A stretch of DNA of 21,222 nt from a virus: IMG/VR virus record IMGVR_UViG_3300034170_000138, positions 1-21,222 of that record. One strand, 5' to 3'. Below the pieces are notes generated by a model that saw only the letters and a program-made list of their open reading frames with translations, searched no databases and was not told the DNA's origin. Position numbers and translations under genes: made by a program. Positions 2,706 through 19,449 of this stretch are shown here, in pieces; position 1 is the first letter of the stretch; each line of letters opens with the position of its first letter.

Positions 2706-4163
2706 ATGAGTCAGATCGACCACGTATTCGTGCTGGTACTCGAGAACCGATCGTTCGACCACTTCTTCGGCCTTTGCGGACGCCCGTCCGTCCATCGACC
2801 GGGTGACAGCGCGTTTCAGGCAGGGGCGACGGATCGCGCGGTGTTCGACCCGCCGCACGAGTTCGACTCGGTGCAGGCGCAGATCGCCGGCGGCGCGATG
2901 ACCGGCTTCGACGCTCGCGCCAAGCTGGCATTCCTGCCGTCGCAGATCCCCGTCGTCAGCCAGCTGGCCGACGAGTTCGTCCTGTTCGACAACTGGTTCG
3001 CCTCCGTGCCGGGGCCGACCTGGCCGAACCGCTTCTTCGTCCATGCGGCGTCCAGCGGCGGCCTGGCGACCAGTCCGACTCAATTGCAGGAGAGCGGGGC
3101 CGTGATCACGACGAGGTCGCCGTTTCGATTCGAGAACGGCACGATCTACGATCGCCTGACGAGCTGCGGAAAGAAGTGGCGGGTCTATCACGGCGACGTC
3201 CAGCCGCAGGTGCTGGCGCTTCCCGGCATGGTCAGGCAGTATCTGGACGGCAGCGACCATTTCTGCCCCTTGCTTGACGGCGATCCGCACTTCTCGAGCT
3301 TCGCGGCCGACGTCGGTGACAGCGGATACGAGCCGGTCTACACCTTCATCGAGCCGAACTACGGCATCGAGATGGGCAGCCAGTTCCGTTTCGGCGACTC
3401 GCAACATCCGCTGGGACTCGTGAGCGCCGGGGAATCCCTGATCAAGCATGTGTTCGAGGCGCTGCGCAACTCACCGATCTGGTCGAGCAGCGCGCTGCTC
3501 GTCACCTGGGATGAGCATGGCGGCTTCTACGATCATGTGGCGCCGCCGCCTGCGACGCCTCCGGGCGATGAAGCGCTGAACGGACCGCCCGGCGGCCGTG
3601 CGCCCCCGTTTGCATTCGATCGCCTCGGCGTTCGGGTTCCTGCGTTATTGATCTCGCCGCTTGCACCCAAAGGCAGGCTCGGCAGCGAATTGTTTCCTGG
3701 GGCCGTGTTCGACCATTCGTCCATCATCCGATCGGTGTTCGAACGTTTTGAGCTCGGCGCGGCGTTGACGGCACGAGACGGTGCCGCGCCGAGCTGGAAC
3801 GCCTGCCTCCGCGCTGACGCCCGCGACGCCTCCCAGGATGCGCCGACGGCGCTGGCTGCGACATTCGACAATGCACGAGTCGTGGACGCGACGTCCGCGC
3901 CTCGGATGTCCCAGCTTGCCGTGGACGGGTTCCTCGCGGGCGCGGCACTCATCGCGCACGAGCTCGACCACGAGGTCGCCAGCGCGGCGGGGCGCGTGCC
4001 GCTCGCCCACAACGTGCCGCAGTCCGCGGCCGCCTATGCCGCAGCCCGGCAGGCGTCCGTGAGGGACCCTCGGTTTCGCTCGCACGTCGTGCAGTACATC
4101 AACGAGGTTGGCGTGCGAGTGCAGGGGCATCGCATTCGAGGCGCGTCGCAAGTCGAACCCTAG
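2706..4163 (+). CDS. Phosphoesterase family protein (phospholipase C / acid phosphatase type)
   Basis: This 485-aa protein belongs to the bacterial phosphoesterase family that includes non-haemolytic phospholipase C and AcpA-type acid phosphatases. Family hallmarks are visible: ENRSFDHFFG near residue 13, TWPNRFF near 103, FIEPNYG near 216, TWDEHGGFYDHV near 268 (metal-site Asp, Glu, His), and a downstream HSSIIRSVFERF block. It should hydrolyse phosphomonoesters or phosphodiesters such as phospholipid head groups. No signal peptide is visible, although many relatives are Tat-exported; a cytoplasmic location or a missed upstream start would explain this. The ATG has a strong GGAGG 9 nt upstream. 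It is divergent from the PEP-CTERM/nucleotidase pair, consistent with a shared phosphate-acquisition theme. The exact substrate cannot be told from sequence. Confidence 0.9.
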   Translation: MSQIDHVFVLVLENRSFDHFFGLCGRPSVHRPGDSAFQAGATDRAVFDPPHEFDSVQAQIAGGAMTGFDARAKLAFLPSQIPVVSQLADEFVLFDNWFASVPGPTWPNRFFVHAASSGGLATSPTQLQESGAVITTRSPFRFENGTIYDRLTSCGKKWRVYHGDVQPQVLALPGMVRQYLDGSDHFCPLLDGDPHFSSFAADVGDSGYEPVYTFIEPNYGIEMGSQFRFGDSQHPLGLVSAGESLIKHVFEALRNSPIWSSSALLVTWDEHGGFYDHVAPPPATPPGDEALNGPPGGRAPPFAFDRLGVRVPALLISPLAPKGRLGSELFPGAVFDHSSIIRSVFERFELGAALTARDGAAPSWNACLRADARDASQDAPTALAATFDNARVVDATSAPRMSQLAVDGFLAGAALIAHELDHEVASAAGRVPLAHNVPQSAAAYAAARQASVRDPRFRSHVVQYINEVGVRVQGHRIRGASQVEP

Positions 4164-9192: not shown

Positions 9193-10008
9193 ATGAGAAC
9201 GATTCGATTTCGAGCGATAGCTGCAGCGATGGCTGCGTGCGTGGCCACGACGCCGACGGCCCATGGCAGGCCGCACCACGCCACTCAGACTCTGGCACCG
9301 GCAGTCAGCGCGCCGGCGGATCAGCGGCCTCGCGAGCCGGTGCCCGTGGCAATCGTCTCGCAGCCTCCGGTGCCCGAAGACGAACGCCGGGCGCTGGAGC
9401 TCGAGCGAGCACAGAAGACGGCATCGGATGCCGCCCTCGTCACATGGACGAAGGTGCTCAGCATCGCGACGCTGTTGCTTGCCTGCGGCACCCTGGCGCT
9501 TTGGTGGGCGACAAGGCGCCTTGTCGTTGGAGCCGACAAGACCGCCGAGAGGCAACTTCGCTCCTACCTGTTCGCCCAGGTACTGATCGAGCACGAAGTG
9601 GCACGGCCCCTCATCGTCAATGCATCCCTTCAGATAATGGTCCGCGTCACCAACCACGGCACAACCCCTGCAATATTGACTCGGCTACGCGCACTTTGCG
9701 TCATCGACGACGGAGCGCCTCGCACATTGCCGACTTTTCCGGGAGCCGACCGTGAAGTTCCCGCGGGCATTGCGATCGGGCCGAACGGTACCTTTGAGGA
9801 GCGGATATTGGTGCCGGCGGATCTTCCCGGGCTCGCTGCGGTCCAGGCCGGCCACCAAAAGCTTTTTTGCTGCGGCATCATCTCCTATGAAGACGTGCTT
9901 GGCCTGCGTCGCGAGACAGGCTTCTGCTGGCATCTTGCGAACCCAGTCGGCGGAAGCGGGAATTGGTTCACGATCACACCGGATACGCCGCTGAACCATC
10001 GATCTTGA
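9193..10008 (+). CDS. Uncharacterised single-pass membrane protein
   Basis: A 271-aa protein with an N-terminal signal-like segment (about 5-25), a Pro-rich linker, and a transmembrane helix (about 84-106, IATLLLACGTLALWW). The helix is followed by a charged helix with TAERQLRSYLF. The C-terminal domain reads as a beta-sandwich: VRVTNHGTTPA, then CGIISYEDVLGLRRETGFCWHL. The combination ERQLRxY / NxGxTPA / GxxxYxDxxG...TxFC is, from memory, typical of a very widespread uncharacterised family with two N-terminal hydrophobic segments found in phages and genomic islands. The start has GGGAGG upstream. It is the last plus-strand gene and converges with the phage block. Function unknown. Confidence 0.8.
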   Translation: MRTIRFRAIAAAMAACVATTPTAHGRPHHATQTLAPAVSAPADQRPREPVPVAIVSQPPVPEDERRALELERAQKTASDAALVTWTKVLSIATLLLACGTLALWWATRRLVVGADKTAERQLRSYLFAQVLIEHEVARPLIVNASLQIMVRVTNHGTTPAILTRLRALCVIDDGAPRTLPTFPGADREVPAGIAIGPNGTFEERILVPADLPGLAAVQAGHQKLFCCGIISYEDVLGLRRETGFCWHLANPVGGSGNWFTITPDTPLNHRS

Positions 10009-11696: not shown

Positions 11697-11906
11697 TCAT
11701 CCTACGCCTAGCTGAGACGCCGCTGCCCGGGGCCTGCCCGGCACTGCGCTCGATGAACCGCGCCGCGGCCGCTGCGCCAAGGCTCGCGCGCCTGGCCTTG
11801 CTGCGATGTCGTACGCCATGGCGCCACGCTGCTCGCCGACGCGCTCCGCGCAGTAGAGGCCGGCGGCCACCGCGAGCAGGATAAGAAGCCCGGCGACGTG
11901 CGTCAC
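11697..11906 (-). CDS. Small single-pass membrane protein
   Basis: The GTG at 11906 overlaps the TGA of the preceding gene (GTGA), a typical coupled start. The 69-aa product has one N-terminal transmembrane helix (about 4-20, VAGLLILLAVAAGLYC) followed by GEQRGAMAYDIAA and then a low-complexity Arg/Ala/Pro tail. A tail read in another frame is possible, so the 3' half could be frameshifted. It might be an Rz-like or holin-associated small protein, but no lysis gene is identified nearby. Confidence 0.5.
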   Translation of the reverse strand: MTHVAGLLILLAVAAGLYCAERVGEQRGAMAYDIAARPGARALAQRPRRGSSSAVPGRPRAAASQLGVG

Positions 11907-12526
11907 GCCCAGGCCGCCTCTGCCGACCGGGCCAAACGCTTCCGCACTGCAGCGGGCGGGCTCAGCAGCTGCTTTCGCGCGCTGGCGAGCGGTGAGAAAT
12001 TCCAACGCGTTTCTTCAGGTGGCGCGGCGGTGGCGGCCTCCGCCGCCTCTCGCGCATCGGCGAGTTTCAGCACGTGCACGAGCCAGCCCGGCCTGAACTC
12101 TCGCGCCCGAACCTCTTGCGCGTCGAACTTCGACACGAAGCCCGGTGGCCACGGCGAGTCGAGCTGGAACTTCGGGGGCGGTGGCGCGGACTCGGCTGCC
12201 ACTCGCCGGCGCTCGGCCCGCTCGCGCCGGCGCGCGACGTCTTCGTCCGAGGGGATCGGTTTGGCCGGGCGGTATTCAATCGTCGCGCTTTCGTTTCCGG
12301 CGCCAAGCGTCCAGGCAATCTGGGGAATTCCTTTGCGGTACCGCTTCCTGATCAGGCGCAGCTTCACCGCATTGGCGAGCAGTTGGTGCAGCGCGCCCGG
12401 CTTGACGCTCAGCCGGCGTGCCAGGTCGAACGTTTCGAGCTGCGCGCCCCGCGGAAGGCCCTTGAATATCTGAAGCGCTCGGAACCCGGTCGATCCCTCA
12501 ACGATGAAACCCAAGGTGACCTCCAT
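11903..12526 (-). CDS. Winged-helix-like phage regulatory protein
   Basis: A 207-aa protein. Residues about 12-75 (FRALQIFKGLPRGAQ, then FDLARRLSVKPGALHQLLANAVKLRLIRKRY) read as a winged helix-turn-helix: helix, Ser/Val-turn, recognition helix, then a basic wing. The middle (about 95-125) is Arg-rich, and the C-terminal part contains DSPWPPGFVSKFDAQEV and a long Ala/Glu region ending in an Arg-rich helix. It is probably DNA-binding. The start ATG 12526 lacks a clear Shine-Dalgarno and overlaps the end of a small upstream ORF, suggesting coupling; a TTG four codons on follows a GGAGGT closely. It is translationally coupled to the membrane gene downstream. Confidence 0.65.
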   Translation of the reverse strand: MEVTLGFIVEGSTGFRALQIFKGLPRGAQLETFDLARRLSVKPGALHQLLANAVKLRLIRKRYRKGIPQIAWTLGAGNESATIEYRPAKPIPSDEDVARRRERAERRRVAAESAPPPPKFQLDSPWPPGFVSKFDAQEVRAREFRPGWLVHVLKLADAREAAEAATAAPPEETRWNFSPLASARKQLLSPPAAVRKRLARSAEAAWA

Positions 12527-12675: not shown

Positions 12676-13194
12676 TCAATGCACCGTTGGCGGCGTGAAG
12701 GCACGCGTCGCCTGCTTCCATGCCCACAGATTGACATTCGCCAGATGCCCCCATTGCCTGACGTGATCATTCGAGTCGATCTGCTCCAACAACGCCAACG
12801 CCTCGGACCGCTTCATGCGTGTCCCGAATGCCAGGTGGTAGGCTAGACCGGGTTGATTGAGCCCGACCGGCGACATGACGATCGCCCTGCATCGCTCGCG
12901 CTCGCGCTGAACCGCTGCCTCATGGAGTCGGCCGTCGCCGCGACCGACCGACGCCCTCTCGCGCGCGCCGCGCTCATCGTCGACGGCGACCCTGCGAGGT
13001 TCCATCTTCGATGGCAGTGGCGTCCGCTGCGAAGCCTCCGGCAGCGAAGGCAACACCGGCACCTCCGGCGGAGAAATGGTCAGGCGGTCCTCGGCTCGAG
13101 GCGACGACAGTCCGAAGAGATGCGCCAGGCCCAGAGGGATCCGACGAAGCGCGTCGACCGCGGTCGACGCCAGGGATGTGATCGTCTTCTTCAT
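12676..13194 (-). CDS. Hypothetical phage protein with C-terminal motif resembling phage head proteases
   Basis: A 172-aa protein starting at ATG 13194, overlapping the HTH gene stop by 4 nt (ATGA). The N-terminal third is Leu/Pro-rich and disordered-looking. Residues about 95-140 read QRERERCRAIVMSP, then AYHLAFGTRMKRSEALALLEQI. From memory, this ER-x-R-x-x-AI...A-x-HLAF-x-T-x-M...EA-x-x-LL pattern is common at the C-termini of phage S49/ClpP-type head proteases, where it may belong to an internal scaffold. Here it stands alone with no protease domain. The C-terminal tail is unique (HVRQWGHLANVNLWAW). Role unknown. Confidence 0.65.
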   Translation of the reverse strand: MKKTITSLASTAVDALRRIPLGLAHLFGLSSPRAEDRLTISPPEVPVLPSLPEASQRTPLPSKMEPRRVAVDDERGARERASVGRGDGRLHEAAVQRERERCRAIVMSPVGLNQPGLAYHLAFGTRMKRSEALALLEQIDSNDHVRQWGHLANVNLWAWKQATRAFTPPTVH

Positions 13195-13562
13195 TGCGTG
13201 CTTTCGTTGACGGCCGGTGGCCGTTGGGAGGCATGCGGCGAACTGGTCTTCGCCGTCGCGCGCTCGAGATCCGCCAATGCGGACACCGCGGAGGCGGCCG
13301 CTGCGGACATTGGTGCAGGTGCGGACATCCGCATGCAGTGCGGACACTGCGGACATGAAAAACCTGCCCGAAATCTGCGGATGTCCGCACTCAGAAATGG
13401 GCCAGCGGTGTTCCCGAGACGCCACTCGCTGCCGACGAGATTTGCGGCGAGTTTTCCAGTCTCATCACGAGGGAGGCGGCCCTCCGCGATGCCGCGGCGA
13501 ACGAGTCTCTCGTCGCACCCGTCGCGGCGCGCGAACTCGCGAATGGAGATCAGCTCAGCCAA
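13191..13562 (-). CDS. HTH DNA-binding protein (Nu1/excisionase-like) containing the TGCGGACA repeats
   Basis: A 123-aa protein from a TTG at 13562. Residues 4-50 (LISIREFARRDGCDERLVRRGIAEGRLPR, then a wing) form a MerR/excisionase-like winged HTH of the type seen in phage small terminase Nu1 and in Xis proteins. The C-terminal half is encoded over the repeat array, producing CPQCPHC and an Ala/Ser-rich stretch (APAPMSAAAASAV), and ends in a short helix. It is the first gene after the tail module and is coupled to the next gene. The DNA repeats start at its first codons, so autoregulation is plausible. Alternative roles are small terminase or excisionase; neither partner gene is in the window. 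Confidence 0.65.
   Translation of the reverse strand: MAELISIREFARRDGCDERLVRRGIAEGRLPRDETGKLAANLVGSEWRLGNTAGPFLSADIRRFRAGFSCPQCPHCMRMSAPAPMSAAAASAVSALADLERATAKTSSPHASQRPPAVNESTQ
13278..13389. repeat. TGCGGACA octamer cluster inside the HTH gene
   Basis: The octamer occurs at 13278, 13302, 13320, 13339 and 13348 on the plus strand, and inverted (TGTCCGCA) at 13382. Two copies are extended into 14-bp near-palindromes: TGCGGACATCCGCA at 13320-13333 and its exact reverse complement at 13376-13389. With the two copies at 13564 and 13580 this makes eight octamers in about 310 bp. I saw no other exact copy in the window. It resembles an operator or iteron array. Confidence 0.85.
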
Positions 13563-13870
13563 GTGCGGACACCTTTTAGTGCGGACACCTTTTTGCCCCC
13601 TTCACCTAGACAGACATCACGGCGTCCAATAGCCCTCGATGCAGAAGTCGTTCCGGAGTACCTTTTGCTTTTTGCGGGGGCGGCGGGCACGCGGGGCCCG
13701 GCAGCGAGCAGCAGGTCCGCGGTCTCTCGGTCGTCACGCCGAAGGAGCGCCAGGCGCGCTCCCCGGGCCGTGGCTGCGTTGCGGCTGCCGCGCCGGTGCC
13801 CACCCACGCTGCCGATGGTTTGAAGACCGAACGGTGACCGAACGGCGATCCGCGGTGCAGGGCCATTCAT
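13550..13870 (-). CDS. Doubtful ORF coupled to the gp45-like gene
   Basis: A 106-aa frame whose ATG (13870) overlaps the gp45-like stop by ATGA, which is the main reason to list it. The product is Arg/Ala-rich with a weak helical centre (ARLALLRRDDRETADLLLAAG) and runs through the 16-bp repeats into the start of the HTH gene. A second overlapping frame (13606-13866) is about as good. Mu-like phages place gp46 here, but neither frame resembles it. If neither is real, 13595-13866 is non-coding. Confidence 0.2.
   Translation of the reverse strand: MNGPAPRIAVRSPFGLQTIGSVGGHRRGSRNAATARGARLALLRRDDRETADLLLAAGPRVPAAPAKSKRYSGTTSASRAIGRRDVCLGEGGKKVSALKGVRTWLS
13562..13593. repeat. Perfect 16-bp tandem repeat at the HTH gene start
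   Basis: AGTGCGGACACCTTTT is present twice head to tail (13562-13577 and 13578-13593). Each unit contains the TGCGGACA octamer. On the transcribed minus strand the pair lies immediately upstream of the TTG start of the HTH gene, where an operator would sit. The 16-bp period puts the two octamers about 1.5 helical turns apart. Confidence 0.9.
13825..13845. repeat. Short direct repeat GACCGAACGG x2
   Basis: GACCGAACGG is found at 13825-13834 and 13836-13845, an 11-bp period. It lies just downstream of the gp45-like gene and could be a small binding site or a chance duplication. Confidence 0.6.
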
Positions 13871-14589
13871 GGCGTCACGGCCCCCGAGATTCCGGTGACG
13901 GCGGTGCCGCCGGCGCGGAACGTGCCTGGCGCGTGCTCGTGCGTGCTGCCGACGTCGTGCCCGTTGTTCGTCATGGCGCCGGTGACACTCGTGTCGCCGA
14001 TCAGGGACGTGATGCCGGTGAGCGTCGTCGCTGCCGTGATGCCCAGCGTGGCGGCTTCGGTGGTGACGGTCGTGGCGGTCGTCGTGATGGTCGTCGCGTT
14101 GACGGTCATCGTGGTGGTGTCGATCTCCACGGACGGGGCCTGCAACTTGATCAGCGCACCAGCCTGCAGCGTGATGTTGCCGCCGGCGGTTGCGGTGATG
14201 TCGGAGGTCGTCTCCACGACGATCGGGCTGTCCTTGCCCTGCACGTGGATGCCGGCGGCCGACAGATAGACGAAGCGGCCCTTGTCGTCATGGATCGCGA
14301 CCTCGCCGCTCGCGAGCCCAGTCATGCGAACCGTCTGGTTGTTCGTCGCCACCACGACGCCGTTGGTGCGCTCACCGGCGATGAACAGCACGACCGCGTC
14401 GCTGCCGACCGGTGGGTTGGATACGAAGCCGTACTCCGCCAAGCGCGGCGTGTCGTCCTTCAGCTCGTCCTGGCCGAGCTGCACCTGCATGACTTGCGCC
14501 GACCTCGAGTCATCGACTTGCGTGATGCGCCCTGCGCCGATCGCCATCAACGTGCGACGCCAGAGGCGCGTGATCGCTGAGGTGTTCAT
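13867..14589 (-). CDS. Mu gp45-like baseplate spike / assembly protein
   Basis: A 240-aa protein matching the Mu gp45/P2 gpV central spike: an N-terminal OB-fold region (about 16-110, GRITQVDDSRSAQVMQVQ, then GSDAVVLFIAGERTNGVVV), a short linker, and a Thr-rich beta-helix (about 130-205) with repeated TTxT strands. The tip carries the H217-x-H219 metal-binding motif (STHEHAPG) typical of iron-tipped spikes. It should pierce the outer membrane when the tail contracts. Its start overlaps the upstream hub gene by 4 nt. It is full length and shows no obvious damage. In Mu, gp46 to gp48 would follow; here they are missing. Confidence 0.92.
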   Translation of the reverse strand: MNTSAITRLWRRTLMAIGAGRITQVDDSRSAQVMQVQLGQDELKDDTPRLAEYGFVSNPPVGSDAVVLFIAGERTNGVVVATNNQTVRMTGLASGEVAIHDDKGRFVYLSAAGIHVQGKDSPIVVETTSDITATAGGNITLQAGALIKLQAPSVEIDTTTMTVNATTITTTATTVTTEAATLGITAATTLTGITSLIGDTSVTGAMTNNGHDVGSTHEHAPGTFRAGGTAVTGISGAVTP

Positions 14590-15734
14590 CGTACGCCCAG
14601 GTTGTCAGGGAGCCCAGCAACCTCGGCAGCGAGTGCCGAGTCGAACACCGCCGGCGCGACGTCGAACGCTTGCGGAGGCATGATCACCAGATCGCAATGC
14701 GTTCCGTCTGCGCCTTTGCGATAGGTCACCTCGCTGATCGTCCAGACGCGGCCGCTGACCTTCAGCGTTGGCAGATCGAGAGCCACCAGTGTGTTCGCCT
14801 GGTAGAGCGAGCCAGCCTTGTCGCGCCAGCTGTCCGTGGTCAGCCGCACTGCGAAAGATCGGCCGAAGCGCCTCGAGGACTCCCAACCAGCGCGAGCAGC
14901 CGCAACCTCCTGACCGCCGATGCCTCCGCCGCTGGATTCGGCGATCAGGATCTTCAGGCGATGCCGCTTGACGGTCTGATCAGGTCTCGACGCGATGAGA
15001 TCGCCGCCGTTGCCGACGTCCAGGAACTTCGCCACCGGCTGCATGTAGCAGCGGTACTCGCTGAACCTCTCGTGCATGGATAGCGTCGCGCTCGCCGACT
15101 CGACGTTGATCCCTTGACGGAAGCCCGAGGCGGCACGTTGCGTGGTGGAGGCGCGCGCGAGCAGCAGGTTGCCGTCCTCGTCGTCGTAGGCCAGGAGGGC
15201 GCGGAACCGGCACAGGCGCTCGATGATCTCGTACGCGCTTTCTCCGCGCATCAGGTTGAACTTTGGGATCGGGGCGCCGGCGTCGTCGACGGCTTCGACC
15301 GTGATGCCGTAGGGTTCGGCCAGCTTGCGCGCCACCTCGAGCACAGACGAGCCGACGATCTGGCCGTTCGGCCACTCGGCGGAGCAATCGACGAGGTCGG
15401 CGCACTTGCTGCGCCCATAGACCGCAATCGCATGCTCGTCTTTGGAGATCGACGGGGTGACGATGTCGACGTAGCCGGTGATCACCGCCTGGCCGCCGAT
15501 GCGCACCGTGCACGGATCGCCGGGCTTGATCTGCAAGGCATCGGCATCCGCCGCGTAGAGATCTGTGAGGCGGAGCTCGAAATCGCTCGGCAGCCGCTCG
15601 ATGCCGCGCGTGATGCGCACGTCCTGCCAGCCGCCGTAGCTCCGGCCGTCGATGAGGATGGTGACGTCATCGCTGCGCGCGGCGTTCGCGGTGACGGTGA
15701 CGTGCTGCACTACAGGGTCGATCGGCTGGTTCAT
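14586..15734 (-). CDS. Mu gpP (gp44)-like baseplate hub / tail protein
   Basis: A 382-aa protein of the gpD/gp44 hub family. It has an N-terminal beta domain (about 22-110, TILIDGRSYGGWQDVRITRGIE, then ELRLTD, CTVRIGGQAVITGYVD and AVYGRSKCADLVDCSAEW). The middle reads SVLEVARKLAEPYGI, ESAYEIIERLCRFRALLAYDD and LLLARA. The C-terminal part has WESSRRFGRSF and the hallmark VWTISEVTYRKGADGT. The trimeric hub holds the gp45 spike and joins tube to baseplate. It overlaps the neighbouring genes by 4 nt on each side, so the module is tightly coupled. No frameshift or missing part is apparent. Confidence 0.92.
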   Translation of the reverse strand: MNQPIDPVVQHVTVTANAARSDDVTILIDGRSYGGWQDVRITRGIERLPSDFELRLTDLYAADADALQIKPGDPCTVRIGGQAVITGYVDIVTPSISKDEHAIAVYGRSKCADLVDCSAEWPNGQIVGSSVLEVARKLAEPYGITVEAVDDAGAPIPKFNLMRGESAYEIIERLCRFRALLAYDDEDGNLLLARASTTQRAASGFRQGINVESASATLSMHERFSEYRCYMQPVAKFLDVGNGGDLIASRPDQTVKRHRLKILIAESSGGGIGGQEVAAARAGWESSRRFGRSFAVRLTTDSWRDKAGSLYQANTLVALDLPTLKVSGRVWTISEVTYRKGADGTHCDLVIMPPQAFDVAPAVFDSALAAEVAGLPDNLGVR

Positions 15735-17104
15735 GAGATGAGGGCTTTCAGCACGCGAGGCATGAATGCAGGGTGAATGGGCGCTGCCCGAGACACGAGT
15801 TCGTCGGCACGCGACGGATCGCGATAGAGACGCTGGGCCAGCACGAGCGATGGGAGGGAGCTGGCAACATCAACGGTCACAAGGCCCGGGAGCGACGCGC
15901 CGCGGGCGTTGAGGTCCTTCACTGCCTGCACGCGCAGCGCGCGCAGAGACGCGTAGACGCCGTCCTCGAGCTGGTCGCCCGCGATCGTGATCTCGGTGTC
16001 GAGGTCGGCCAGCACTTGCGTTCGGACATCCGCCGCGTCGTCGCTTGACCATGGCTGGTACTTCGAGCCGGCAATGGCGAGCGTGACCACCGAAGCTCGT
16101 CGAAACAGGTCGGCGCACGCGCCCTGCACCACCAGGCCCCCGCCGGTCGCGACGCCGTCAGGCACGAAGTTGGCAAGTGACTGCAGCCCGCGCAGCGCGT
16201 CGCCTGGCGTCGATGCGACGTTCAGAATTGCGGTGGCCAGCGCCTGCACGGCATCGGTGAACGGCGCCGTGTTGCCGATACCGATCTGGGATGCAGCGCT
16301 GACGAGTGCCGTGCACGCGCTCGCAACCAATGCGCGCGCGGCAGAACGAGCGGCGGCGAGCCCTTGTGGCGTCAGGCCAGCCGTAGCTGGGATGATCTCG
16401 CCTACCGAGACGCCGGATGCCAGGCCGAGCAGGCGGCCATAGTTGCCAGGCAGAGAGACGGCCAGCTTGATGAGGCTGGTGGCGTCGTTGCCCACGCGCT
16501 GCGCCTGAGCTGACCATGCGACAGCTTGCGCCTGAACCTGATTGGCTTGCGATGCGCCAGCGACCAGTGGGCCGGCAGCCTTTGCGACGAAGGCCGCGTT
16601 GCTTGCGCTCGCGGCCGCGGACGAGGCACTGGCGACTGCATTCGCGCCGTCCGACACCGACGACGGGTAGAGGCGCTGTCCCTGCCGGACGAACTGGAAG
16701 CGGTAGGCGAATGTGCGGCCCTGCTCCGTCTCCTCCCAGTCGAACCCGATGACCGCGACCTGCACGCGCCCGAGCGTGGGGTGCACGAGCTCCCCGTCGC
16801 CAGGCGCCTCCACCGCGGCGATCATGCGCGCCCGCTGAGCGATGACGTCGTCGCCAGTGACAAAGCCGACGATCTGGATCCGGCGCGACTGCCGGCCGAG
16901 ATCTTCCACCCATGGAAGGTCGCGGAACGGGTACTCGTGCACCGCGTTGCGCCGGCCCGCCTGGCCGCCGCCGCCGCGCACGGCGAACGGCACGTTCCGG
17001 AAGGACGCGGGCTGCAGCTGATCCCAGAACGAAGGCGCGGCGGCCGCGCTTCGCGCTGCTGCGTCGATCGAGGCCGCTCCGCTTGTGGCTTGCGGATCGC
17101 TCAT
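15731..17104 (-). CDS. Mu gpN (gp43)-like DNA circularisation/tail protein
   Basis: A 457-aa protein with the DNA-circularisation N-terminal domain at about residues 25-118: FWDQLQPASFRNVPFAV, RRNAVHEYPFRDLPWVEDLG, IVGFVTGDDV, then GELVHPTLGRVQV and a WEETEQGRTFAYRFQFV end. The remaining 340 residues are Ala-rich and helical. In Mu, gpN is a baseplate/tail component acting between tape measure and hub; the family name comes from a related protein annotation, and circularisation is not expected to be its real activity here. Both ends overlap the neighbouring genes by 4 nt. Confidence 0.9.
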   Translation of the reverse strand: MSDPQATSGAASIDAAARSAAAAPSFWDQLQPASFRNVPFAVRGGGGQAGRRNAVHEYPFRDLPWVEDLGRQSRRIQIVGFVTGDDVIAQRARMIAAVEAPGDGELVHPTLGRVQVAVIGFDWEETEQGRTFAYRFQFVRQGQRLYPSSVSDGANAVASASSAAASASNAAFVAKAAGPLVAGASQANQVQAQAVAWSAQAQRVGNDATSLIKLAVSLPGNYGRLLGLASGVSVGEIIPATAGLTPQGLAAARSAARALVASACTALVSAASQIGIGNTAPFTDAVQALATAILNVASTPGDALRGLQSLANFVPDGVATGGGLVVQGACADLFRRASVVTLAIAGSKYQPWSSDDAADVRTQVLADLDTEITIAGDQLEDGVYASLRALRVQAVKDLNARGASLPGLVTVDVASSLPSLVLAQRLYRDPSRADELVSRAAPIHPAFMPRVLKALIS

Positions 17105-18675
17105 GGCAGGTCTCCGCTGGGCATGGCGTATTGGGTCAGGGTGGGCTGATAGGCGCTGGAGACCGGCGTCCCGCCCTGTGCCTTCGCAACCGCCGTGACG
17201 CGCGTGCCGGCAGGGAGGCCGTGAACATGCAACTCGATCGATTGCACGGCCGCCGCGTTGTACTGGTCTTTCGAGAACGGCTGCTTGCCCTGTTCATGGC
17301 TCACCATCGCGGCCATCAGGGCTGCACGCGTTTCGCGGTCATCCAGATCCAGATGCTGATCAGGGGAGAAGCCGGTCTTCTTGGAAACGTCGTCGACGTA
17401 CGCCCCGGTGTTGTTCTCGCTGGGCGGCGCGTACTTGCCGATGATGCTGCGGGGCGTGTCGATTCCACGTGAGCCGTAGAGCCCGAGCTGCTCGCCCATT
17501 GCTCGCAGGCCATCGCCGGGGCTGGCGAACTGCGCGAAGCCGCCGACGGATGGCACCCCGCCCCAGGATCTGAGGTTGCCGGGGTTGTTGCGCTTGATCG
17601 CCTCCGGCAGAGCGCCAGGCCTCAAGGAGCCACCGATCTGGCCGCTGACGGAACGCTGGGCAGCCGTCGTCAGAGCTCGCTCACCGAACAGACCGTGGGA
17701 CACGGTGTCGAACAGCGCCGAGACGCCGGTCAGGCGCATGCCTGCTCGGATCGCGTCACCGTTGAATCCCATCGCGGCGGGGAACGGATTGGTGTGCGAT
17801 TCTGTGAGCCGGCCGGTCAGTGCGTCCATGCCCTTCGTCAGCGCTGGCACCATCCGTGAGCCGATGCTGTTTCCGACGCCATCGGCCGCGGCCTTGAGCC
17901 GATTCAGCGAGTTCGTGAAGTCGACCGACCACTGCAGCGCCTGGGGGCCAGCTTCGCCATGCAGCCTTCTGAATTCGGCGGAGAGGCGGCTGATGGCCTC
18001 GGGGCCTTGCATCAGCAGCGGAATTGCGTCCGGCGGGATATGCAGTGCGTTGGCGAGCGCCTCGCGCACGTGCGGATCTGCGATTCGGGACATCGCGAGC
18101 GCAATACCATTCATCGCTCCGTCGACGTCAACCATGCCATTCTTCATCGGCGTGCCGATGCCGAGCTTCTCCAGCGCTTGCAATGCCTCGGCATCGCGGC
18201 CCCACTTCGCGTTGTGCAAGGTCGTTCCCAAACCATCGAGGGTGTTGGTGAGAACATCCGCGTGCACGCCGGCCAACTGGGCTGCGCCACGCCAGTCCTG
18301 AAGCGCTTGAGAGGAGATTCCGAGGCGTTGAGACGTCCGATTGATTTCGAATCCCGAACTCGCGAAGCGCACGCCCAGCCCGATCGCAGCGCCACCGGCT
18401 GCCAGCAGCCCGCCGACGATGCCGCCGGCGCCCAACACTGTCTCTAGTGGCCCCAACGACAGGCCCAGCGTCCGGCCCATGGTGACCGCTGCGTTCGAAA
18501 CGTTGCCCATTCCCTTCGCGACCTTGTTGAGGTGCATCTCGCGGGAGAGGGCGCCCACCTGGCGCTGCACGTTGACGAGCGGGCGCGCAGCCTTGCTCGC
18601 CTGATCGTTCAGCTTGCGGAACGTCTTGGTGAAGTCGTCGATCGCTGAAACGCGAACCTGGAAATTGTTCGCCAT
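17101..18675 (-). CDS. Tail tape measure protein with lysozyme-like segment
   Basis: A 524-aa tape measure: an N-terminal helical/coiled region (FTKTFRKLNDQASKAARPLVNVQ), a hydrophobic Gly-rich region (about 75-105, GAGGIVGGLLAAGGAAIGLG), and a helical body typical of Mu gp42-like proteins (RLGISSQALQDWRGAAQLAG). Residues about 360-480 carry a KRNNPGNLRSWG segment continuing to GLYGSRGIDTPRSIIGKYAPPSENNTGAYVDDV-type sequence. That is a structural lysozyme-like domain used by phages to cut peptidoglycan locally. Tape length sets tail length, so this protein, shorter than the roughly 690-aa Mu gp42 I recall, implies a shorter tail. AGGAG precedes the ATG at 18675. No tail-chaperone frameshift pair is seen upstream. 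Confidence 0.9.
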   Translation of the reverse strand: MANNFQVRVSAIDDFTKTFRKLNDQASKAARPLVNVQRQVGALSREMHLNKVAKGMGNVSNAAVTMGRTLGLSLGPLETVLGAGGIVGGLLAAGGAAIGLGVRFASSGFEINRTSQRLGISSQALQDWRGAAQLAGVHADVLTNTLDGLGTTLHNAKWGRDAEALQALEKLGIGTPMKNGMVDVDGAMNGIALAMSRIADPHVREALANALHIPPDAIPLLMQGPEAISRLSAEFRRLHGEAGPQALQWSVDFTNSLNRLKAAADGVGNSIGSRMVPALTKGMDALTGRLTESHTNPFPAAMGFNGDAIRAGMRLTGVSALFDTVSHGLFGERALTTAAQRSVSGQIGGSLRPGALPEAIKRNNPGNLRSWGGVPSVGGFAQFASPGDGLRAMGEQLGLYGSRGIDTPRSIIGKYAPPSENNTGAYVDDVSKKTGFSPDQHLDLDDRETRAALMAAMVSHEQGKQPFSKDQYNAAAVQSIELHVHGLPAGTRVTAVAKAQGGTPVSSAYQPTLTQYAMPSGDLP

Positions 18676-18819: not shown

Positions 18820-19449
18820 CTACATCGCGTTCGTGATGTACGCACGAACAGAAGAGGTGAATCGCAGCTTCACGCGATACAGCGCGCGAGGCGCGAGCGG
18901 AATATTCGGCGCCAACCCGATGACGGCAAGCTCGCCCGCGCCGACCTCGTTGAATGATCCGCCGGCCAAGCTGGCGCTGCTCACGTTCCCTGTCGGTGGC
19001 GCGTAGTTCAGCGCAGCGGTCACGCCGCCTCGCTCGAGCATCTGCGCTGTGATGCCAGGGCTCGCGCCATCGCCAATGATGTCGAACAGGTGGCCAGCGG
19101 CCGGCAACACCCACACAAAGCGTCCGACACCGCCGCCCGCCGCGATAGACGGCTGGGTCGCGTCGAAGGGCGACGCGGGCGCCACGCCGACTATCACACC
19201 GAACTCGCTGCTGATGGTCCGAAGCTGACTTGTCGTGCGCGCCAGCGTGCCGGCGGAGATGGGGACACCGCCATGCAACTTGATCACGGGCGCACCGGCG
19301 AAGGACTGCAGCGAATCGATGACGACGTCGCCCATTGCATACGCATTCGCGTCCGTATCCAGGAGGCGCCAAAGCGCCGGCGCAGAGGCTCCGGTCAATG
19401 CGCGGAGGTCGCTGTGGGGGACGAGGCCGAGGCTGAAGGTGGTTGACAT
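18820..19449 (-). CDS. Unrecognised phage protein (209 aa)
   Basis: A 209-aa, Gly/Ala-rich, beta-strand-rich protein with no membrane helix or Cys, starting at ATG 19449 with AGGA upstream. Segments include GDVVIDSLQSFAGAPVIKLHGG, GRFVWVLPAAGHLFDIIGDG and GELAVIGLAPNIPLAPRALYRVKLRF. The composition is that of a virion protein. Position upstream of the tape measure would suit a tail tube or decoration protein, but the sequence does not look like Mu gp40 or P2 FII. A 144-bp gap to the tape measure holds only a doubtful 35-aa ORF. Function unknown. Confidence 0.75.
   Translation of the reverse strand: MSTTFSLGLVPHSDLRALTGASAPALWRLLDTDANAYAMGDVVIDSLQSFAGAPVIKLHGGVPISAGTLARTTSQLRTISSEFGVIVGVAPASPFDATQPSIAAGGGVGRFVWVLPAAGHLFDIIGDGASPGITAQMLERGGVTAALNYAPPTGNVSSASLAGGSFNEVGAGELAVIGLAPNIPLAPRALYRVKLRFTSSVRAYITNAM

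Follow-up and report, generated by a model that had tools for sequence, protein, structure and literature searches.

The cos packaging sites of lambda, 21 and N15 share one order of parts, namely cosQ, cosN and the repeats bound by the small terminase subunit TerS (PMC9026076, PMC4669245), and in lambda itself cosQ (GGGTCCT) lies about 30 nt before cosN and the R3 repeat at bp 50-65 (PMC9026076). The TerL-binding function of lambda TerS sits in the C-terminal half of the protein (PMC9026076, PMC6739421), and packaging specificity in lambda-like phages is set by the R sites together with the recognition helix of TerS (PMC4669245). In PICIs of E. coli, furthermore, a protein called Rpp has a TerS-like DNA-binding domain, is encoded beside the island cos, pairs with the helper TerS and redirects packaging (PMC6739421); the start of rpp is near cos bp 102 (PMC6739421, PMC9026076). 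For Serratia phage BZS1, 12-nt 5' cohesive ends, GCATTGCGCGCC, were determined with PhageTerm, and the cos was confirmed by PCR (PMC7556043).

Here, we analysed a stretch of 21,222 nucleotides of viral DNA (hereafter called the window; IMG/VR record IMGVR_UViG_3300034170_000138), in which the octamer TGCGGACA occurs in eight exact copies (seven on the plus strand and one on the minus strand) within 310 bp. The plus-strand copies start at 13278, 13302, 13320, 13339, 13348, 13564 and 13580 and the minus-strand copy at 13382, exactly where a preliminary description of this DNA had placed seven direct copies and one inverted copy; that description had also held that the window contains no other exact copy, and a search of its whole length indeed found none outside the array. 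Also confirmed was a perfect 16-bp tandem repeat (13562-13577 and 13578-13593), and a pair of inverted repeats was found to be exact reverse complements as claimed but to measure 15 bp (13319-13333 and 13376-13390) and not 14 bp. Under a first-order Markov model of the window, 0.017 copies of the octamer would be expected per 310 bp and 1.2 per window, and the six copies within the helix-turn-helix (HTH) gene of the locus were matched or exceeded in none of 20,000 codon-preserving synonymous shuffles. When one mismatch was allowed, the octamer total in the window did not exceed the chance level; the signal therefore lies in the exact octamer and in its clustering. In eight bacterial genomes with relatives of the HTH gene, the ratio of the octamer's frequency to that of its reversed control was between about 0.65 and 2.6. 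The octamer is hence no repeat with strong enrichment across the genome, the outcome on which the preliminary description had made its proposal depend. Among the papers listed in a full-text search of the open-access literature for the octamer, only chance occurrences in unrelated papers were seen.

The HTH gene encodes a protein of 123 residues, for which an N-terminal helix-turn-helix is predicted confidently (pLDDT of about 86-96 at residues 1-50 and low beyond). This protein by itself matched phrog_57 (terminase small subunit) with an E value of only 0.0095. Fifteen viral relatives were found, and 12 of the 14 aligned family members matched phrog_57 with a best E value of 3e-24. Among these 14 sequences, those of the window and of the record L009 are short, whereas the other 12 are full-length with about 175-225 residues and are followed by TerL. 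The match of most family members to phrog_57 and the TerL gene next to the full-length relatives therefore identify the window gene as a TerS gene and bear out its earlier designation as a phage HTH gene; as judged from the alignment, its DNA-binding domain has been retained and its C-terminal half lost. The HTH of the window shares 76% identity with that of L009 at a dN/dS of about 0.17, and the linker peptide has diverged around the retained words. A fold search of the PDB gave only generic MerR/Xis-like winged-helix matches.

Upstream of the array, we noticed elements resembling cosQ and cosN, and the locus on the minus strand reads as follows (cos bp are numbered in the direction of the gene):

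13653..13663, minus strand: cosQ-like element AGGTACTCCGG, 76 bp before the first octamer
13621..13635, minus strand: cosN-like element GGGCTATTGGACGCC, 28 nt after the cosQ-like element, aligning with the cos of BZS1
13622-13633, minus strand: predicted 12-nt cohesive end GCTATTGGACGC, from alignment with the cos of BZS1 (putative nick)
13580..13587, minus strand: R word 1, TGTCCGCA, cos bp 47, the position equivalent to R3
13564..13571, minus strand: R word 2, TGTCCGCA, cos bp 63, beside the TTG start
13191..13562, minus strand: TerS DNA-binding-domain gene, 123 aa, without the C-terminal TerL-binding half (alignment with relatives, phrog_57)
13382..13389, plus strand: inverted R word (TGCGGACA in gene direction), cos bp 245
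13348..13355, minus strand: R word TGTCCGCA, cos bp 279
13339..13346, minus strand: R word TGTCCGCA, cos bp 288
13320..13327, minus strand: R word TGTCCGCA, cos bp 307
13302..13309, minus strand: R word TGTCCGCA, cos bp 325
13278..13285, minus strand: R word TGTCCGCA, cos bp 349

The words thus span cos bp 47-356 with the start of TerS at bp 72, which agrees with the place of cosB repeats from about bp 50 on and beside terS. In the relatives, the first word is preceded by the cosQ family consensus GGGTCCTTCC, which is followed by a motif resembling CGGGCAATTGCGCGCCGCG. A cosQ element was present within 150 bp of the first word at 51 of 62 loci (shuffling gives GGGTCC in 9% of the upstream stretches), and the distance from cosQ to the first word was 72-78 bp at 45 of 50 loci and 88-89 bp at the other five, where at least some of the first words carry a mismatch. 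The spacing between cosQ and cosN, about 30 bp in lambda-type sites, is likewise fixed, being 26-31 nt at 25 of the 26 measurable loci and 28 nt in the window, and the first word begins 47-49 nt past GGG at 25 of 27 measurable loci. The cosQ variant of the window, AGGTACTCC, deviates from the GGGTCC of most relatives and is common to L009 and the TerL-bearing L064; the cosN-like element of the window also deviates from the family consensus.

The array was found to be conserved together with terS. Full-length relatives have the same word array at the start of terS and again in its linker, where the frame in which the words are read varies, with inverted words at positions comparable to that in the window, and in 14 relative records the octamer is nearly confined to terS (in one of 45.5 kb, for example, five of six copies fall within 220 bp). 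We then scanned IMG/VR for the DNA layout independently of any protein, using two direct words plus one inverted word as the pattern; a scan with three direct words was dropped because its matches were mostly unrelated loci, and the direct-plus-inverted layout is hence the more specific signature. Sixty-one stretches were obtained, about 50 of which have a TerS HTH at the array; eleven have neither the TerS HTH nor a cosQ at the right distance, and one of these eleven, L051, is part of a longer record that does bear TerS. Intragenic words fell into five strand/frame classes over the 61 loci, with at least two classes at 52 of them. The DNA is therefore conserved while the encoded peptide changes. 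In the linker, the function of the DNA prevails over that of the protein, as the preliminary description had suggested might be so for the C-terminal protein sequence, and its expectation that homologous HTH genes would keep the array held for most of them. No array was found in Rhodobacter phages that have a distantly related TerS (28-30%), and neither a clear array nor a significant replacement word was found for the TerS relatives of L022 and L030. In the latter two records, the recognition helix is GCSHTLVQK, and a few GTTGCC words occur near the start and in the linker, a number not significant in shuffles. We also noticed three loci (L161, L162 and L193) with dense TGCGGACA arrays of 9-14 copies each and without a TerS homolog.

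The comparison with BZS1 connects this layout to a verified packaging site. TerS of BZS1 is a relative of the window TerS family, and the verified cohesive end of BZS1, with ACGG directly before GCATTGCGCGCC, falls exactly in the family cosN motif. Nine GGTAACA words are found in BZS1 at bp 48, 55, 67, 218 (inverted) and 246-297 with the terS start at bp 75, as compared with words at bp 47, 63, 245 (inverted) and 279-349 and TerS at bp 72 in the window; the GGTAACA array is not mentioned in the consulted passages of the BZS1 paper (PMC7556043). The same layout with other words was found in Citrobacter phage phiNP (GGTAACA), Acetobacter phage phiAP1 (GGTTGCA) and Acidithiobacillus phage AcaML1 (GGTTTCCA). 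Also, replacement words occupy the same positions in L020 (TGTTCGCA) and L018 (TGCCCGCA) with P of about 0.01, and TTTGCA is suggested as the word of L043 and L047 with weaker support than in those two. A word that changes within a fixed layout is what would be expected where the protein that recognises the site diverges in turn. The cosB word may change together with the recognition helix of TerS, as a handful of phages suggest.

Given the fixed position of cosQ and cosN, the TerS/TerL context and the verified cohesive ends of BZS1, the array is very probably cosB, the part recognised by terminase, of a lambda-type cos site for packaging on the minus strand. In this site, the cosQ-like and cosN-like elements would precede words that begin at bp 47, run through the terS start and continue in the linker at bp 245-356. 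Words of either orientation would be bound by winged-helix domains of TerS, which would hold TerL in place; TerL would then nick cosN, at a position predicted by the alignment, to leave 12-nt 5' cohesive ends as in lambda-type sites, and begin packaging.

The locus resembles the lambda-like cos in the order of its parts (with binding of the repeats by TerS being predicted here), in the position of the first repeat near bp 47-50, in the GGGTCC core of cosQ in the window's relatives, in the mixed orientation of the repeats, and in a word that differs between phages, where it is a determinant of specificity in the lambda-like ones (PMC9026076, PMC4669245). Words of the window family are, however, 7-8 bases long and present in about 4-10 copies, whereas lambda-like phages have one or three 16-bp R sites (R3-I1-R2-R1), and the array crosses the terS start codon into the linker, whereas lambda-like repeats end before terS; a profile comparison of the window TerS family with lambda Nu1 gave no significant match, either. 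The IHF site between the R sites of a lambda-type cos is not universal and is absent in N15. BZS1 and phiNP share the cosN motif, cosQ, a related TerS and the array layout with the window but have a different word and are complete phages with TerL. A further likeness is to Rpp/cos of EcCICFT073, where a stand-alone protein like the DNA-binding domain of TerS is encoded beside cosQ-cosN in an element without TerL (PMC6739421, PMC9026076). In this comparison, which is made by description, Rpp and its cosB differ from those of the helper, whereas the window array has the same word as intact phages, and the window element carries tail genes, unlike the PICI.

Around the array, the window has the following genes:

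11903..12526, minus strand: conserved element gene with a weak MarR-like winged-helix match; homologs in L009 and L026
12676..13194, minus strand: small protein with a C-terminal motif like head maturation protease tails (phrog_17040 E 4e-4, phrog_6382 E 4e-10)
13867..14589, minus strand: Mu gp45-like baseplate protein (PF06890 E 7e-21)
14586..15734, minus strand: Mu gpP-like baseplate hub (phrog_177 E 6e-116)
15731..17104, minus strand: baseplate hub / DNA_circ_N protein (PF07157 E 4e-32; phrog_184 E 2e-74)
17101..18675, minus strand: tail tape-measure-like protein, 524 aa (phrog_2276 E 5e-65; homologs in L009, L026 and L025)
18820..19449, minus strand: conserved element gene; homologs in L009 and L026
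19558..20322, minus strand: coiled-coil-like conserved element gene, shared with L009 (E 8e-43); homolog also in L031 (E 3e-4)

The Mu-like baseplate and tape-measure genes fill 13867-18675 with no terminase or portal detected, and tail genes would be unusual for satellites. The protein of 12676-13194 has a homolog in L009 (7137-7754) and no relative in a viral scan; from its motif, it is a possible capsid-assembly, scaffold or capsid-size factor. A PEP-CTERM protein (1766-2356) and a phosphoesterase-family gene (2706-4163) of the window are probably bacterial chromosome beside the element.

The gene order of the window is kept in L009 and in L026, a contig from a Lysobacterales assembly; both are syntenic with the window in the 18820-type gene, the gpP-like hub, the tape measure, the TerS DNA-binding domain with the array and the 11903-type gene. 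The C-terminal TerL-binding domain of TerS and an adjacent gpA-type TerL are absent in all three; because the contig of L026 is too short, ending about 1.5 kb past the TerS gene, the absence of TerL there refers to a search of its genome bin. Profiles of TerL (PF05876, gpA-type) and portal (PF05136) matched 13 of 13 records with full-length TerS and were missing only in the records of the window and L009, possibly fragments, which are also the two with truncated TerS. Intact TerL-bearing array phages have gpP homologs at 41-47% identity to that of the window, and the tail genes of the window therefore resemble those of possible helpers. Two other records are comparable. In L025, from a Rhodospirillales assembly, the order is Int, AlpA, DUF3987/Toprim, cos/TerS and tape measure, so that the integrase, AlpA-type regulator and primase of PICI-like satellites are all present; in L031 (Acidisoma silvae), cos/TerS is preceded by a DUF5906/VapE-like gene. 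No gpA-type TerL was found genome-wide in either genome. L009 has a helicase and HTH_17, and an HNH endonuclease gene of the L009 element (L024 1017-1628) lies upstream of the replication genes. Near cos/TerS of L031, furthermore, a ThsB-like TIR protein (12993-13445; Thoeris family, PF08937 E 2e-12) is possible defence cargo. As a lead to a tRNA attachment site, ARAGORN matches at 9499-9589 of the window and 2758-2849 of L025 were rejected, since they overlap reading frames, and L025 has no direct repeat of at least 18 bp. Because a detectable TerL and the TerL-binding half of TerS are both lacking, we somewhat favour the view that the window element would be a satellite, in which cos and the stand-alone DNA-binding domain of TerS would recruit the terminase of a helper phage, as Rpp does.

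Other functions of the array have to be weighed. The preliminary description had proposed either that the HTH protein binds the repeats as operators or that they form an iteron-type origin, and the position of cosQ/cosN, the TerS/TerL context and the verified cohesive ends of BZS1 contradict both. What stands of the former is that this is an array of sites at the DNA level, to which the HTH protein or the full-length members of its family probably bind; its use as an operator, by which the protein would repress its own or tail-gene expression, is very improbable. Such a role would fit an HTH protein with a weak match to the Cox-like excisionase/repressor family and a start codon abutted by two sites, but most of the sites are intragenic and reach up to about 280 bp beyond the start, their spacing is locked to cosQ/cosN, the family members are TerS, and the BZS1 array lies at a verified virion end. 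Autoregulation by the HTH protein may nonetheless occur as a side effect. Still less credible is an iteron-type replication origin within a replication gene like lambda O, despite direct repeats within a phage DNA-binding gene; this gene encodes TerS and no initiator, the layout is that of cos, and the replication genes of L009, L025 and L031 (DnaB, DUF3987/Toprim and DUF5906/VapE-like) are separate and upstream. As for a repeat at the protein level with the DNA repeat as its by-product (e.g., the CPHC motif), CP.CPHC is indeed encoded in the window and L009, but in relatives, where frame and strand of the words vary, they are read as VSA, ADK, VRT and MSA, and synonymous shuffles fail to regenerate the copy number; the shift of frame between relatives refutes this explanation, to which we give next to no credence.

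For the element as a whole, the main rival to a satellite is an inert remnant, namely a decaying, deleted prophage whose cos and terS stump are leftovers unused by any helper. The truncated TerS, the missing TerL and portal, and the incomplete set of tail genes are in line with such decay, as is the lack of an integrase, none being found in the contigs of the window and L009, possibly fragments (the window contig ends in tail genes). Nevertheless, the gene order with open frames is kept in three independent records, dN/dS is about 0.17 for the HTH and below 1 for the other shared genes, the array and the cos spacing are intact, and the satellite-like L025 and L031 also lack a gpA-type TerL genome-wide. 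We thus consider a remnant unlikely, albeit far less so than an operator. Extending the satellite reading, we propose, tentatively and with slightly more doubt than belief, an undescribed family of proteobacterial satellites that would carry their own tail-hub/tape-measure genes and TerS DNA-binding domain together with the multi-word cosB array of a helper, whose terminase they would thereby capture, and where the joint change of word and recognition helix among helpers would be a readable code of packaging specificity.

In conclusion, the repeat array provides a predictable packaging signal for a large group of cultured and uncultured phages. The sequence by itself suffices to locate cos, by means of cosQ, cosN and a word repeated within terS, and because the word differs in an unchanged layout, packaging specificity could be read from it. 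If the window element is a satellite, furthermore, it would represent a further lineage of packaging parasites beyond the well-studied enteric and Gram-positive ones.
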